This document shows positions 50,833 through 55,772 of a stretch of DNA of 64,000 bases, piece after piece. This stretch comes from Wenyingzhuangia fucanilytica. Lineage in GTDB: Bacteria; Bacteroidota; Bacteroidia; Flavobacteriales; Flavobacteriaceae. Made by a program: the position numbers and the translations under genes. Numbering within the stretch: the stretch's first letter is position 1; every line of letters starts with the position of its first letter. Location of the stretch: contig NZ_CP014224.1 in assembly GCF_001697185.1 (NCBI RefSeq), positions 1,488,001 to 1,552,000 of the forward strand. The letters are read 5' to 3'. A model generated the notes under the pieces. It searched no databases. It saw only the letters and a program-made list of their open reading frames with translations, and was not told the DNA's origin.

Positions 50833-51540
50833 ATGGCACGTTTTTTTGAAAATGACATATGTATTGTAACCTTAACTTTTGTCGCGTTTTTTGTGGCTCA
50901 ACTTATTCAGAAAAAGACTCGAATCATTTTGTTAAATCCCATTTTGGTTGCCATCATTATGATTATTTCTTTTCTTTTTATTTTTAAAATTGATTTTGAA
51001 GTCTACCACAAAGGAAGTAGATTGATTGAGTTTTTCTTAAAACCAGCAATTGTAGCCTTGGGAGTTCCTTTGTATCAACAATTAGGTAAAATTAAAAAAC
51101 AAGCAGTGCCTATATTGGTTTCTCAATTGGTAGGTTGTTTGGTAGGAGTAGTCTCTGTAGTATTGATTGCCAAATGGATGGGGGCCCCTAGAGATATTAT
51201 TTTGTCTTTAGCACCAAAATCTGTTACCACACCTATTGCCATGGAAGTTTCTAAAACCATTGGAGGTATTCCGCCTTTAACTGCATCAGTAGTTATTTTG
51301 GTTGGAATTTTTGGTTCTATTTTTGGTTATGGAATTATGAAGTTTAGCCGAGTAAAAAGTACTCTTGCTCAAGGAATTTCTATGGGAACTGCAGCTCATG
51401 TAGTAGGGACCTCTAAATCTATGGAGATTAGCGAAAATTATGGTGTGATGTCTAGTATAGGACTTATAGTTAATGGAATTTTAACCGCTTTGTTAGCTCC
51501 ATATATTTTACAATTATTACATTATTGTGACTTGTTTTAA
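50833..51540 (+). CDS. lrgB: LrgB/CidB family membrane protein
   Basis: 235 residues with about seven hydrophobic segments. FLKPAIVALGVPLYQQLGKIKKQAVPILVSQLVG, LAPKSVTTPIAMEVSKTIGG and MGTAAHVVGTSKSMEISENYGVMSSI are the LrgB signature. It is made together with the LrgA-like protein 9 nt upstream. In plastids and some bacteria LrgAB-type proteins move glycolate or pyruvate. Whether that holds here is unknown. No stem-loop terminator lies immediately after the stop; the nearest T-run structure ends about 250 nt downstream. Confidence 0.9.
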   Translation: MARFFENDICIVTLTFVAFFVAQLIQKKTRIILLNPILVAIIMIISFLFIFKIDFEVYHKGSRLIEFFLKPAIVALGVPLYQQLGKIKKQAVPILVSQLVGCLVGVVSVVLIAKWMGAPRDIILSLAPKSVTTPIAMEVSKTIGGIPPLTASVVILVGIFGSIFGYGIMKFSRVKSTLAQGISMGTAAHVVGTSKSMEISENYGVMSSIGLIVNGILTALLAPYILQLLHYCDLF

Positions 51541-51678
51541 ATTTCACCAATCATTCTGTTTTTTATAAATTGATTATAAAAGAATTAATACTCCTCAAAA
51601 GAAGGTTTTATAAAGTACTCAAACAGGGTTTTTAAACATCCCAAAACTTTATGATATATGGAGGAAGTCATCCAAATT

Positions 51679-51789
51679 AAAAAGCAACGTTTCTCTTAAA
51701 CAACTGAAACGTTTCTTTTGTACAACTGCAACGCTCCTCTTTGTAAAGAGGAGCGTTGCAGTTAAGTAAAAGTAAAGGTGCTTTTTTTT
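51679..51789 (+). repeat. Imperfect tandem repeats folding into a 19-bp hairpin with outer stem and T-run
   Basis: Units beginning GCAACGTTTCTCTT (51684), CAACTGAAACGTTTC (51701) and CAACTGCAACGCTCC (51723) are related copies. The last forms one arm of a perfect 19-bp stem, 51724-51742 with 51745-51763, separated by only 2 nt. AAAAAGCA (51679-51686) can pair with TGCTTTTT (51779-51786), and a T run follows. It could be a distant terminator for lrgAB, a structured RNA, or a small mobile repeat. Confidence 0.7.
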
Positions 51790-51882
51790 ATTGCAAAGGT
51801 TGAATTTTTTTAAGCTGATAGAAAGTACTTTTTTTAATTAAATTAATGCAATAGAGTGGAAAGAACAACTCAAAAATTATCT

Positions 51883-51912
51883 TGACTAAGTAAATTGATT
51901 TACTTAGTTTAG
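51883..51912 (+). promoter_or_regulatory. Promoter with palindromic operator upstream of the Nudix-helicase operon
   Basis: TTG (51883-51885), a 19-nt spacer and TAGTTTAG (51905-51912) match the Bacteroidota promoter form TTG-N17-23-TAnnTTTG with one mismatch. A perfect inverted repeat CTAAGTAAAT-N2-ATTTACTTAG occupies 51886-51907, lying between the two elements and touching both. A protein bound there would block RNA polymerase, so repression is the natural reading (inference). Confidence 0.6.
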
Positions 51913-51913
51913 T

Positions 51914-51930
51914 TAATCAGTTTCTGATTA
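51914..51930 (+). promoter_or_regulatory. Second inverted repeat near the predicted transcription start
   Basis: TAATCAG-N3-CTGATTA, a perfect 7-bp repeat, lies 2 nt after the predicted -7 element and 41 nt before the Nudix start codon. It could be an additional operator half or a short RNA hairpin in the leader. Confidence 0.45.
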
Positions 51931-51970
51931 GTTCTGTAGCTGATTTCCAGATTAAATTCCCTTAAATTAA

Positions 51971-52366
51971 ATGAAGAAAATAGAAGTAGTTGCAGCAATC
52001 ATCCATTTTGAAGATGAAATTTTATGTGTTCAACGAGCAGAAAGTAAATTAGATTATATTTCTGAGAAATTTGAATTTCCTGGAGGTAAAATTGAAAAGG
52101 GAGAAACTAAAGAAGAAGCATTGGCTAGAGAGTTAACTGAAGAACTAGACATTAAGCCTGTGATTAAAGATTTGTTTTTGACGGTTGTACATACTTATCC
52201 AGATTTTGAAATAACAATGCACAGTTTCAACTGTATAACAAATTCTAAAAAAATAAAGTTGAAAGAACATATTTCAGCACAATGGTTAAAAAATGATAAT
52301 CTAAGTCATTTAGATTGGGCTGCTGCTGATTTACCAATAGTTTCAAAATTAATTGATAATGAATAA
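51971..52366 (+). CDS. MutT-like Nudix hydrolase
   Basis: 131 residues. The Nudix box G39-x5-E45-x7-R53-E54-L-x-E57-E58 is complete (GGKIEKGETKEEALARELTEELDI region), with Asp in the variable second-last position as in many (d)NTP pyrophosphohydrolases. VVAAIIHFEDEILCVQRAESK and FEFPGG also match MutT/CTP-pyrophosphohydrolase-like enzymes. It would hydrolyse a nucleoside triphosphate such as 8-oxo-dGTP or a modified CTP. The stop codon overlaps the helicase start by 8 nt (52359-52366), so the two proteins are translationally coupled and likely work together. Confidence 0.9.
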   Translation: MKKIEVVAAIIHFEDEILCVQRAESKLDYISEKFEFPGGKIEKGETKEEALARELTEELDIKPVIKDLFLTVVHTYPDFEITMHSFNCITNSKKIKLKEHISAQWLKNDNLSHLDWAAADLPIVSKLIDNE

Positions 52367-55300
52367 ATTTTCGATTCAAGGTTTTGAAAAAAGTATTCAA
52401 ACAGGTTTTATAGACAAAACTATTAATTCAGAAATTCTTTATCAACCAGAGTTATTGGTAAATAGAAAGAAGCCTAAAGTAAAAGTCTTATCAACTATTA
52501 TTAATGAGTTAGAGTCTTGTGAATCTTTTTTTATATCAGTTGCATTTGTAACAACTGGAGGTGTTGCTACTTTAATGAATACCTTAGTAGCACTTGAGAA
52601 AAGAAATATTAAAGGTAAAATATTAGTTTCTCAATACTTGAATTTTACTCAGCCAGAAGCATTAAAAAGACTTTTAAAATTTAAAAACATTGAACTTAGA
52701 ATAGCTACTAAAGAAAATTCACATTCTAAAGGGTATCTTTTTAAAACAGCTGATTATTACAATTTAATAATAGGTAGTAGCAACTTAACAGATTCAGCTC
52801 TGACTACAAATAAAGAGTGGAACCTTAAGGTTTCTGCTTTATATGATAGTGAAATTGTAGATAAAGTAGTAGGAGAGTTTGAAGATGACTTTAATAAAGG
52901 AATTGTTGTTACTTCTGAATTTATAGAAGAGTATAAAGAAGTATACAATAAACAAAGATTGTATAGTACAAAAGGAGATGATGAGCATATCACAACTAAA
53001 ACAATCTCTCCAAACTCAATGCAGAAAGAAGCATTGAAAAACATAGAGGTTTTGAGGTTGGCTAATAAAAATAAGGCCTTGTTAATTTCTGCTACGGGTA
53101 CAGGTAAAACATATTTATCAGCTTTTGATGCTAAGGCTTTTAATTCTAAAAAATTATTATTTGTTGTTCATAGATTGAATATTGCTAAAAAAGCTTTAGA
53201 AACATTTCAATCAGTTTTTGGTCAAACAAAAACAATGGGGTTATACTCTGGAAATCACAAAGATTTAGATAAAGATTTTATTTTTTCTACGGTACAAACT
53301 ATTTCAAGAGAAAATCATTTACATCAATTTGATAAAGATTTATTTGATTATATTATTATTGATGAATCTCACAGGTCAGGTGCTGAGTCTTATTTAAGAT
53401 TAATAGAATATTTTACTCCTAAGTTTTTACTAGGAATGACAGCGACTCCTGAAAGAACAGATGGGAATGATATTTTTAGTTTATTTGACCATAATATAGC
53501 TTATGAAATTAGATTAAACAGAGCTATGGAAGAAAATATGCTTAGTCCTTTTCATTATTATGGAGTAACGGATTTAAGTATTAATGATGAATTAATTGAA
53601 AATAAAAGTGATTTTAATTTATTAGCTGCGGATGAAAGAGTTGATAAAATTATTGAAAAGGCTCATCTGTATGGTTGCGATAATGGAATAGTTAGAGGAC
53701 TTGTTTTTTGTTCATCAAACAAAGAGGCTAGAATACTTTCTTTAAAGTTTAATGAGAGGAAATATAAGACAATAGCGCTATCTGGTGATAATTCTGAAGA
53801 TGAAAGGATTAGAGCAATTGAATTATTAGAGTCGGATAATATAAACGAAAAAATTGATTACATTTTTACTGTTGATATTTTTAATGAAGGAATTGATATA
53901 CCAAAAGTGAATCAAATTATTATGATGAGACCAACAGACTCATCAATTATTTTTATTCAACAACTAGGTAGAGGACTTAGAAAAATTAATGAGAAACATT
54001 ATTTAACAATTATTGATTTTATTGGTAATTATACCAATAACTATTTAATTCCTATAGCTCTTTATGGAGACACTTCATATAATAAAGACACATTAAGAAA
54101 ATTATTATCAGAAGGTAGTAGAGAAATACCAGGAACTTCAACAATTAATTTTGATGAAATTTCTAAAGAAAAAATTTTTAAATCTATCGATAATGCAAAA
54201 ATGGATAGATTAGCAGATTTGAGAAAAGATTATGAGTTATTAAAATTCAAATTAGGAAGAATTCCTATGATGATGGATTTTGTAAAACATGGTTCTAGAG
54301 ACCCATATCTATATGTTGATTACTCAAAGTCCTATTTAAATTTCGTAAACAAAGTAGAAAAAGATTACAAACACACACTTTCTAATAAATCAGTAAAATT
54401 GTTGGAATTGTTTTCTAAAGAAATTAACAATGCAAAGAGAATTACAGAAAGTATATTACTTAAAGAGTTAATAGAGAATCATAAAATCACTTATGATAAT
54501 TTTATAAATTTAATAAATTACACTTATGGGTTTGAAATCAGTAAAGAGACTTTAAATTCAACGATATCAAATATTAACTTTGAATTCATTAGAGATAAAA
54601 AAGATAAAAAGTTAATTGCAGTAAAAGATATTTATAATTTAAAAATAGTTTATGTAGAGAATGAAACTATTTTCTTAGAGGATGAGTTTTTACAATTAAT
54701 ACAAGAAGATATATTCAATTCTTATTTGATAGATTCTATTAAACTTTCAATTGATACATTTAATAATAAATTTAAAATTGAGGATTGGAAGGATGGATTT
54801 ATTTTATACCAAAAATATTCAAGAAAAGATGTTTTCAGAATATTAAATACTCCTGAGAATCCTGTAGCACAAAATGTAGGAGGTTACCTGGTAAGTGCAG
54901 ACTACAAAAATTGTCCAATTTTTTTAAACTATAATAAAGAAGAAGATATTTCAGAATCTACGAAGTATGAAGATAAATTTGTTAACAACAAAGAATTGGA
55001 ATACATGTCAAAGTCTAATCGTAAATTGACAAGTAAAGATGTTAAGTCAATTTTAGGAGTTCAAGGTGATATTAGGTTACCTCTTTTTACTAAAAAAAGT
55101 AATGATGAAGGTTCTGAGTTTTATTATTTAGGAGATATTTATCTTAATAAAGAAAAAGTTGAACAAACAAGGACAAGTGATGGTAAACCAATTATTAAGT
55201 TTAATTTTTTATTAGAACATCCTGTACCGGATAACTTATATAGATATATAACAACCACAGTTGATACAAATTTATTAGAATTACCTAAAGCTGTAATAGA

Positions 55301-55772
55301 GAAAAATATAGTTAAAGAAGAAAAACCAATTTTCACTATTCCTTTTTATGATTTTTATGCAGCAGCTGGTTCTTTTAGTGAAATGCAAGTAGATAAAGAT
55401 TATTCAATGCTCGAAGTTGATACAGATTATAATAATCAAAATGTTTTTGCATGTAAAGTTCTGGGAGAGTCTATGAATAAAATCATTCCTAACAATTCAA
55501 TATGTCTATTTAAGGAATATTCAGGAGGTTCTAGGAATGGAAAAATTGTTTTAGTAGAAAATGTTGATTTTCAAAACACAGAATTCAATTCTGCATTCAC
55601 TGTTAAAACTTATGTAAGTGAAAAGATTGTTACAGAAGATGGTTGGGGACATACAGCAATTTATTTAAAACCAAATTCATATGATAGTAACTTTAAAGAC
55701 ATTATTATAAACGAAGAAAATGGTCAAAATATGAGAGTGGTAGGGGAGTTTGTAAAAGTGTTAGAGTCTTAA
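52359..55772 (+). CDS. HKD nuclease - SF2 helicase - DUF3427 - LexA-like S24 protease fusion
   Basis: 1137 residues. PLD/HKD nuclease domain at about 35-170, with HSKGYLFK (His122, Lys124) and IIGSSNLT. SF2 helicase at about 225-580: Walker A SATGTGKT (244-251), DESH (335-338), SATPERTDG-like motif III region and QQLGRGLRK (534-542). DUF3427 region at about 800-960 (RILNTPENPVAQNVGGYLVS). C-terminal S24 peptidase-like domain at about 985-1137: AAAG at 1001-1004, GESM with Ser1038, and FTVKTY with Lys1083, then PNS...FKDI and RVVGEFV as in LexA/UmuD. Gly1004-to-Ser1038 spacing equals that of LexA (85 to 119). No HTH was seen. The stop overlaps that of the convergent desulfurase by 3-4 nt. A defence or repair role is inferred. 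Confidence 0.85.
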   Translation: MNKFSIQGFEKSIQTGFIDKTINSEILYQPELLVNRKKPKVKVLSTIINELESCESFFISVAFVTTGGVATLMNTLVALEKRNIKGKILVSQYLNFTQPEALKRLLKFKNIELRIATKENSHSKGYLFKTADYYNLIIGSSNLTDSALTTNKEWNLKVSALYDSEIVDKVVGEFEDDFNKGIVVTSEFIEEYKEVYNKQRLYSTKGDDEHITTKTISPNSMQKEALKNIEVLRLANKNKALLISATGTGKTYLSAFDAKAFNSKKLLFVVHRLNIAKKALETFQSVFGQTKTMGLYSGNHKDLDKDFIFSTVQTISRENHLHQFDKDLFDYIIIDESHRSGAESYLRLIEYFTPKFLLGMTATPERTDGNDIFSLFDHNIAYEIRLNRAMEENMLSPFHYYGVTDLSINDELIENKSDFNLLAADERVDKIIEKAHLYGCDNGIVRGLVFCSSNKEARILSLKFNERKYKTIALSGDNSEDERIRAIELLESDNINEKIDYIFTVDIFNEGIDIPKVNQIIMMRPTDSSIIFIQQLGRGLRKINEKHYLTIIDFIGNYTNNYLIPIALYGDTSYNKDTLRKLLSEGSREIPGTSTINFDEISKEKIFKSIDNAKMDRLADLRKDYELLKFKLGRIPMMMDFVKHGSRDPYLYVDYSKSYLNFVNKVEKDYKHTLSNKSVKLLELFSKEINNAKRITESILLKELIENHKITYDNFINLINYTYGFEISKETLNSTISNINFEFIRDKKDKKLIAVKDIYNLKIVYVENETIFLEDEFLQLIQEDIFNSYLIDSIKLSIDTFNNKFKIEDWKDGFILYQKYSRKDVFRILNTPENPVAQNVGGYLVSADYKNCPIFLNYNKEEDISESTKYEDKFVNNKELEYMSKSNRKLTSKDVKSILGVQGDIRLPLFTKKSNDEGSEFYYLGDIYLNKEKVEQTRTSDGKPIIKFNFLLEHPVPDNLYRYITTTVDTNLLELPKAVIEKNIVKEEKPIFTIPFYDFYAAAGSFSEMQVDKDYSMLEVDTDYNNQNVFACKVLGESMNKIIPNNSICLFKEYSGGSRNGKIVLVENVDFQNTEFNSAFTVKTYVSEKIVTEDGWGHTAIYLKPNSYDSNFKDIIINEENGQNMRVVGEFVKVLES

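Follow-up and report, generated by a model that had tools for sequence, protein, structure and literature searches.

A Nudix gene and a SauUSI-like restriction enzyme with a LexA-type tail in Wenyingzhuangia fucanilytica: a candidate type IV restriction cassette with a possible built-in safety catch

A 64,000-nucleotide stretch of the Wenyingzhuangia fucanilytica genome (NCBI RefSeq assembly GCF_001697185.1, contig NZ_CP014224.1, positions 1,488,001 to 1,552,000 of the forward strand), hereafter the window, contains a two-gene operon at 51971–55772. The first gene encodes a Nudix hydrolase, and the second encodes a SauUSI-like type IV restriction enzyme that ends in an S24 domain of the LexA type. 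Members of the same S24 subfamily are joined to three unrelated motors, and a Nudix gene accompanies all intact SauUSI-S24 fusions found. It is tentatively proposed, with a little less than even confidence, that the two genes form a type IV restriction cassette with its own safety catch, in which the Nudix enzyme would be a guard and the S24 tail would be a self-cleaving off-switch.

All features described here lie on the forward strand of the window. The Nudix open reading frame (ORF; 51971–52366) starts with ATG and encodes 131 amino acids. The large ORF (52359–55772) encodes 1,137 amino acids counted from the ATG at 52359, and the two frames overlap by 8 nucleotides. The ORF program opens the large frame at a TTG at 52353; residue numbers here count from the ATG. 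Pfam assigns NUDIX to the small protein, whereas the large protein matches PLDc_2, ResIII, Helicase_C, DUF3427 (residues 685–965, 243 bits), and Peptidase_S24 (residues 1000–1131, 28.7 bits against a cut-off of 23.3). An earlier interpretation made from the DNA letters alone (the sequence-only reading) had described an 8-nt overlapping pair with an HKD nuclease (H122, K124), an SF2 helicase, a DUF3427-like region, and an S24 domain in the large protein. The overlap was reproduced from the ATG, both residues are at those positions, and Pfam agrees with the domains.

The core of the large protein is of a known kind. Residues 7–965 align end to end with SauUSI of Staphylococcus aureus (PDB 7clg, 953 amino acids, E 4.1e-223), and the PADLOC model mREase_IV matches the protein at 775 bits. 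This gives a name to a core in which the sequence-only reading had recognized no named defence system. The order of PLD nuclease, SF2 motor, coupler, and SRA domain is kept over the full length, as in SauUSI, according to Pfam, PADLOC, and the 7clg alignment. The PLD-family nuclease domain covers residues ~7–191 (52377–52931; PLDc_2 at residues 67–176, with the limit borrowed from SauUSI), the SF2 motor covers residues ~216–617 (53004–54209; ResIII, Helicase_C, and alignments), and the coupler with the SRA target-recognition domain, which is the DUF3427 part, covers residues ~618–965 (54210–55253). In a 43-row core alignment, the nuclease residues H122, K124, and N142 and the ATPase motifs GTGKT (247–251) and D335-E336 are invariant; QQLGRGLRK is found at 534–542. 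Three of the six named residues of the SauUSI pocket for 5-methylcytosine (5mC) are identical (Tyr831, Phe841, and Asp858, which are Tyr843, Phe855, and Asp872 here), and the remaining three, as read from the 7clg alignment, are changed (Ile842 to Leu856, Met829 to Gly841, and Trp868 to Tyr882).

SauUSI works as a dimer that combines PLD nucleases with an SF2 motor and a 5mC-reading SRA domain, and it is active without an S24-type tail (PMC7913695). According to a review, both m5C and hm5C are cut (PMC3874153). Judged by this similarity, the large protein most likely attacks foreign DNA with methylated or hydroxymethylated cytosine. SauUSI stops at the SRA domain, whereas the window protein adds ~170 C-terminal residues with an S24 domain on a linker. 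Two other identities were tried and rejected, namely E. coli RadD (NCBIfam 84 bits against an equivalog cut-off of 720) and an EcoAI-type HsdR (106 bits against 550). A search for the C5-cytosine methylase family PF00145 gave no match in the host genome, which consists of one 3.43-Mb contig; the same search was positive in 10 of 14 control genomes. This absence is as expected beside a 5mC-cutting enzyme. Relatives of the large protein were matched in 538 plasmid-labelled and 1,796 phage-labelled records, with at least 80% query cover in six and four of them, respectively; among the matches listed, all stop at residues 960–978 and are tail-less.

The S24 domain (residues 994–1137, 55338–55769) follows a linker (residues 966–993, 55254–55337) that is probably flexible, with a predicted local distance difference test score (pLDDT) below 50 at residues 969–990 of the full-length model. 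This model is poor between domains, with a predicted template modelling score (pTM) of 0.41. A separate model of residues 967–1137 (171 residues), built with a 63-row alignment, reached a pLDDT of 79.8 and a pTM of 0.73. When compared with the PDB, it matched LexA first (1jhe, Z 14.6, root-mean-square deviation 2.3 over 120 residues). RecA-filament-bound LexA followed at Z 14.2–14.4 (8gms at 14.2), the lambda repressor at 13.3, and UmuD' at 9.5. The claim to the fold is carried by this structure search with a predicted model, because a sequence search of the PDB with a profile built from six S24 tails yielded no chain at E 0.01.

The predicted self-cleavage site is Ala1001-Ala-Ala/Gly1004 (55359–55370), and the predicted catalytic pair is Ser1038 (55470–55472) and Lys1083 (55605–55607). 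The distance from Gly1004 to Ser1038 is 34 and ranges from 33 to 37 across the family. The sequence-only reading had placed the motif, the dyad, and this distance in the same way, and its S24 assignment is upheld by the structural match to LexA. The P1 Ala, the Ser, and the Lys are among the 19 invariant positions of 166 well-filled columns in 63 S24 rows. Ser and Lys are present, 45 residues apart, in all 77 fusions (61 SauUSI-type, 14 GIY-type, and two HsdR), so the dyad is conserved in 61 of 61 intact SauUSI-type homologues, as that reading would predict. A chance S24 match was rejected in view of the conserved site and dyad and the LexA fold of the model. The domain shares its predicted fold, the Ala-Gly site, the Ser and Lys, and the Ala-Ala before the cut with the C-terminal domain of LexA and phage repressors. 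In LexA, it is joined to a DNA-binding repressor domain, whereas it is joined to a nuclease-motor here, and the identity between the two is only ~20%.

Six S24 tails were used to scan the genomes of 84,980 species, and 80 of the 172 relatives recovered were kept. Seventy-four of the kept loci (L042–L115) hold SauUSI-type genes or pieces of them. A fusion was counted as intact when it had 1,090–1,200 amino acids, a frame closed inside the locus, and FYAAA; 61 of the 74 loci pass, and the remaining 13 are truncated, split, or run off a contig end. By record title, the hosts are mostly Bacteroidota, with Balneola-type bacteria, Neptunomonas, Colwellia, Psychrosphaera, Spirochaetales, one record labelled Rhizobium, and several metagenome bins. 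In a core tree, 26 fused proteins (the window and 25 of the 61) part from 10 unfused ones by a single change, with an SH-like approximate likelihood ratio test (SH-aLRT) value of 99; the tree is a quick LG+G4 estimate with some long unfused branches. On this tree, one origin of the SauUSI-S24 fusion would be enough. The fusion was not found in viral contigs, where a full-alignment scan gave 64 partial relatives, none reaching the tail.

The S24 tail is also carried by other motors. The other six kept loci (L116–L121) encode proteins of 724–737 amino acids that end in the same tail, and GIY-YIG, Schlafen group 3 helicase, and S24 domains were found in the four of them that were scanned. A profile search for the S24 subfamily in 395 genomes (E 1e-6) gave 18 members: six SauUSI-type, nine GIY-YIG/helicase-type, two type I HsdR, and one cut by a contig end. 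Eight of the nine GIY-YIG/helicase-type members, one of them split, were confirmed by similarity to L118, and G308 was assigned by frame length only. None of the 17 readable members stands alone. The HsdR fusions contain HSDR_N, SWI2_SNF2, T1R_D3-like, and S24 domains, with HsdS-like genes upstream (identified by eye). A MazG-like gene lies upstream of the GIY-YIG/Schlafen-helicase-S24 gene in all 14 loci read, and the one MazG-like protein compared has dCTP (deoxycytidine triphosphate) pyrophosphatase 1 as its best PDB match. The family of dCTP pyrophosphatase 1 is credited with 5-methyl-dCTP hydrolase activity (PMC10742078). With more reserve than the cassette itself, it is suggested as possible that one LexA-type self-cleaving module was grafted onto at least three unrelated motors as a cis-encoded, RecA-triggered degron switch, two of them paired with unrelated enzymes that destroy (modified) dCTP, which would amount to a general design that protects hosts from their own modification-targeting nucleases.

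Several arrangements were observed around these genes. The GIY-YIG/Schlafen-helicase-S24 gene behind a MazG gene (L116–L121, L186–L192) is a candidate defence system of its own. This pair is found close to a SauUSI-S24 gene in L066:85-2606 and L067:1584-4120, and MazG with a more distant helicase relative is found near a SauUSI-S24 gene in L093, L099, and L102. In the two HsdR-S24 loci (L182:4025-7570 and L183:6036-9584), an AAA ATPase-like gene and an HNH-like gene, Septu-like by eye, lie between the HsdS-like gene and HsdR.

The Nudix gene lies directly upstream of the large gene in 61 of 61 intact SauUSI-S24 fusions, with a gap of −56 to +13 and the 8-nt overlap in 43 of them. The co-occurrence with Nudix genes that the sequence-only reading had suggested looking for among homologues is thus present throughout this set. 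When 395 genomes from the phylum of the window were searched, the top nine Nudix matches (207–243 bits, with the tenth at 130) came from exactly those nine genomes that have a SauUSI-like gene of full length, and the two genes adjoin each other in the window and in all eight neighbourhoods fetched. In a further genome, G380, DUF3427 is represented by no more than a fragment at the end of a contig, and a comparable Nudix is absent. Nine of the 37 other genomes with DUF3427 (G021, G080, G141, G161, G197, G198, G218, G226, and G257) have, among the matches listed, a Nudix on the same strand and ~2.3–2.7 kb upstream of DUF3427; G281, also one of the 37, has no Nudix among the matches listed.

The pairing extends to SauUSI of S. 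aureus itself (L300:1980-4841, which matches the full 953 residues of 7clg at 2066 bits). A Nudix gene (L300:1577-1978) ends one base before it, as the Nudix gene stands upstream in the window. Its product is near-identical to PDB 5x1x, whose entry name, 'Mutator mutT protein', is silent on function. Nudix genes are also directly upstream of SauUSI-like genes in Latilactobacillus and Lactiplantibacillus, which like S. aureus lie outside the phylum of the window's host, and on a Hymenobacter plasmid from within that phylum; in two gut contigs, the Nudix gene is downstream instead. Thirteen Nudix relatives in viral contigs had no SauUSI-like gene within the stretches fetched. Two further arrangements were seen. 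A Lactiplantibacillus plasmid (L126:4559-9954) carries Nudix, SauUSI-like, MazG-like, and GIY-type helicase genes in a row, all without S24. In L091:7541-8459, a Nudix frame is followed directly by a 200-amino-acid frame that includes the S24 region, as would result from loss of the central portion of the large gene.

The best PDB match of the Nudix protein is 3gwy, a 'putative CTP pyrophosphohydrolase' of Bacteroides fragilis (Q5LBB1), with 52% identity over 130 residues. A profile of the Nudix family scores 3gwy at 185 bits, 5x1x second at 125, NudG at 74, and MutT at 70. The Nudix box is intact, and the alignments show Asp120 to be common to the window Nudix, 3GWY, and NudG. The protein also matches the PADLOC candidate family PDC-S07 at 154 bits, a candidate label without stated function. 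A search for 3GWY relatives in 86 genomes of one family gave a single match, 52% identical, in G060. The kcat/Km values of Q5LBB1 are 6.7e6 for 5-Me-CTP, 4.8e6 for 5-Me-dCTP, 4.4e6 for 5-MeOH-dCTP (hydroxymethyl), and 8.5e4 for 5-OH-dCTP (PMC5158307). E. coli NudG (Orf135), a 5-methyl-dCTP hydrolase, shares the Nudix family, an Asp at the Asp120 position, and the proposed substrate, with weaker similarity.

By analogy with the tested enzyme, the substrate of the window Nudix is likely 5-methyl-/5-hydroxymethyl-dCTP, which makes the gene product a likely pyrophosphatase for these nucleotides. The earlier suggestion that the Nudix enzyme alters the nucleotide pool can be narrowed to these two compounds, given the PDC-S07 match and 3GWY as the nearest solved relative. 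Both are precursors of the bases attacked by SauUSI. Sanitising enzymes of such a type keep noncanonical deoxynucleoside triphosphates from entering DNA (PMC10742078). The Nudix enzyme probably keeps modified cytosine from host DNA or starves modified phages.

In the proposed mechanism, the SRA domain would bind DNA with 5mC or 5-hydroxymethylcytosine, the SF2 motor would translocate, and the PLD nuclease dimer would cut in SauUSI fashion, while the Nudix enzyme may also starve phages that make hydroxymethyl-dCTP. The S24 tail on its flexible linker would cleave itself between Ala1003 and Gly1004 through Ser1038 and Lys1083, with RecA filaments formed on damaged DNA as the probable stimulus. 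Such cleavage would leave a nuclease-motor whose C-terminus reads -YAAA; this end resembles those of ssrA tags and LexA and would be open to a ClpXP-type protease. The enzyme would then be switched off when the chromosome is in trouble, as a cis-encoded form of restriction alleviation.

An off switch is favoured over activation because four points are taken together: the LexA-like Ala-Ala scar, the -AMAA tmRNA tag, the LexA fragment with ClpXP, and the EcoKI HsdR precedent. The predicted scar ends in -AAA/-VAA, which resembles the end left in LexA and differs from that in UmuD. The sample of stand-alone S24 proteins from the phylum consisted of the 30 best-scoring loci and the host's two (32 in total, four of them unread: L274, L277, L281, and L294). 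Sites and classes both being judged by eye, Ala-Ala precedes the cut in 15 of 16 LexA-like proteins, with Thr-Ala in the exception (L295), and in none of the 12 UmuD/CI-like proteins, which have Gln/Lys/Pro/Ser-Ala. The host tmRNA tag is GEESFAMAA, ending in -AMAA. The amino-terminal fragment of LexA, ending in -VAA, is reportedly a ClpXP substrate; a literature search for this turnover found no source. During restriction alleviation, ClpXP degrades EcoKI HsdR, in which a degron was looked for and not found (PMC4231737); this degradation also takes place after DNA damage (PMC12707154). The proposed outcome is alike, since a restriction motor is removed, but no degron was located in EcoKI HsdR, whereas the window protein would carry its switch in cis. 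Only two other S24 proteins are present in the host genome, both UmuD-like and next to UmuC-like genes (by eye), and LexA was not found in an S24 search of the whole genome.

Several observations count against the cassette as proposed, and those on the tail begin with the fact that the data equally allow cleavage to activate. The intact tail may restrain the enzyme, and infection or damage may cleave Ala1003-Gly1004 and free an active nuclease. S24 cleavage activates UmuD, which would serve as the precedent, and this logic suits a core that is complete without the tail in the 7clg alignment and a linker beside the SRA domain that is predicted to be disordered. Activation is nevertheless considered unlikely: the residues before the cut are Ala-Ala as in LexA, not those of UmuD/CI-like proteins; type IV enzymes would meet incoming DNA before RecA filaments on single-stranded DNA could form; and the tail is also found on HsdR, a motor that is switched off, not on, after damage in E. 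coli. The sequence-only reading had proposed such a release of the nuclease-helicase, which is unsupported as stated, because the unfused relatives that were read end at the SRA domain, SauUSI is active tail-less, and the LexA-like scar fits inactivation or degradation at least as well. What is supported of that reading is the S24 domain with a LexA-type site and dyad in a Nudix operon. Self-cleavage itself may also be questioned. The Ser-Lys spacing of 45 is 8 residues longer than the 37 of LexA, and cleavage efficiency is uncertain because of this difference. Ala-Gly is found in 60 of 61 intact SauUSI-type fusions, with Ala-Ser in L044, and Ala-Ala before the predicted cut in 75 of all 77 fusions, with Ser-Ala or Thr-Ala in two GIY-type ones; the Ala-Ala count is biased, since one scan pattern held FYAAAG and the intact filter demanded FYAAA. 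Without this filter, Ala-Ala is at the site in all 74 SauUSI-type loci (the frame read at the site in L066 is the neighbouring GIY-type one, and its own SauUSI-type frame has FYAAAG), and a domain search without the FYAAAG pattern still gave the site in six of six. The S24 domain could instead be non-proteolytic, a module for dimerisation or for docking to RecA or a partner that places the enzyme or senses filaments, with cleavage rare or absent. The longer spacing, the Ala-Ser homologue, and the fact that SauUSI works as a dimer (PMC7913695) are consistent with such a module, but the P1 Ala, Ser, and Lys are invariant in 63 rows and the dyad is kept across three enzyme families, which makes it quite improbable.

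The guard role of the Nudix enzyme meets similar objections. NCBIfam scores its MutT and NudG models equally, both below cut-off. 3GWY works slightly faster on 5-Me-CTP, a ribonucleotide (6.7e6; PMC5158307), and E. coli MutT likewise hydrolyses 5-methyl-dCTP (PMC3744803); the substrate argument is non-exclusive for these two reasons. Among the other DUF3427-matching genomes (~37), a Nudix match is listed in only nine at E 1e-15, and no Nudix was found near a Fusobacterium homologue when it was looked for. The NCBIfam result would suit an enzyme with a general house-cleaning role of the MutT/NudG kind, present by chance or as protection from oxidative damage. This is very improbable, because the gene adjoins every intact fusion and the pairing is kept in S. 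aureus and Lactobacillaceae, and the score gap across the 395 genomes and the 3GWY substrate data also argue against it. Somewhat unlikely, and compatible with either model of the tail, is a Nudix that acts as a weapon by draining 5-hydroxymethyl-dCTP (or dCTP), so that a phage would be cut if modified and otherwise could not replicate. The nearest solved relative is fast on 5-hydroxymethyl-dCTP, and a non-homologous dCTPase-like enzyme holds the same place in the GIY-YIG system; the guard role explains the modified-dCTP substrate and the coupling to the nuclease, seen as the 8-nt overlap in 43 of 61 fusions, equally well.

The SauUSI-like core and the S24 fold are known kinds. A literature search of titles and abstract openings, in which most subscription journals were outside coverage, found no description of an S24-restriction enzyme fusion, and a search of the same scope found no Nudix described with SauUSI or type IV restriction. 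PMC7159879 mentions Nudix and SauUS1 in unrelated passages. The literature searched thus contained no account of the fusion, of its occurrence on motors of three families, or of a Nudix substrate that corresponds to the restriction target. To our knowledge, and in our judgement, host escape from its own modification-dependent nucleases is little understood. The operon offers a testable answer for host self-protection, a partner that removes the modified precursor, and one for the missing degron, a LexA-type tail that could disable the nuclease after DNA damage. The well-studied SauUSI system of S. aureus would gain an overlooked second gene, the Nudix.

The operon is flanked by lrgAB-like genes on one side and a cysteine desulfurase gene on the other (names assigned by eye). 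An inverted repeat is present upstream at 51876–51917, with 20-nt arms that are 85% complementary, and was not common to the five relatives compared. Promoter-like sites of the operon occur only at chance level, and a terminator-like site was looked for and not found. An lrgB relative is present in three of the seven genomes of the genus searched, the window's included. In one of the two besides the window's, G399, the desulfurase is outside the stretch read. In the other, the congener G395 (L306:2345-6815, compared with window 51540–55768), different cargo occupies the slot between lrgB and the desulfurase, namely a C5-cytosine methylase (287 bits to PADLOC MTase_II), a 790-amino-acid ORF with a weak MzaB match, and a 298-amino-acid ORF. 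The cargo of this slot appears to be exchangeable because G395 carries the methylase set where the window carries the operon, and the two would be expected to clash in one cell.

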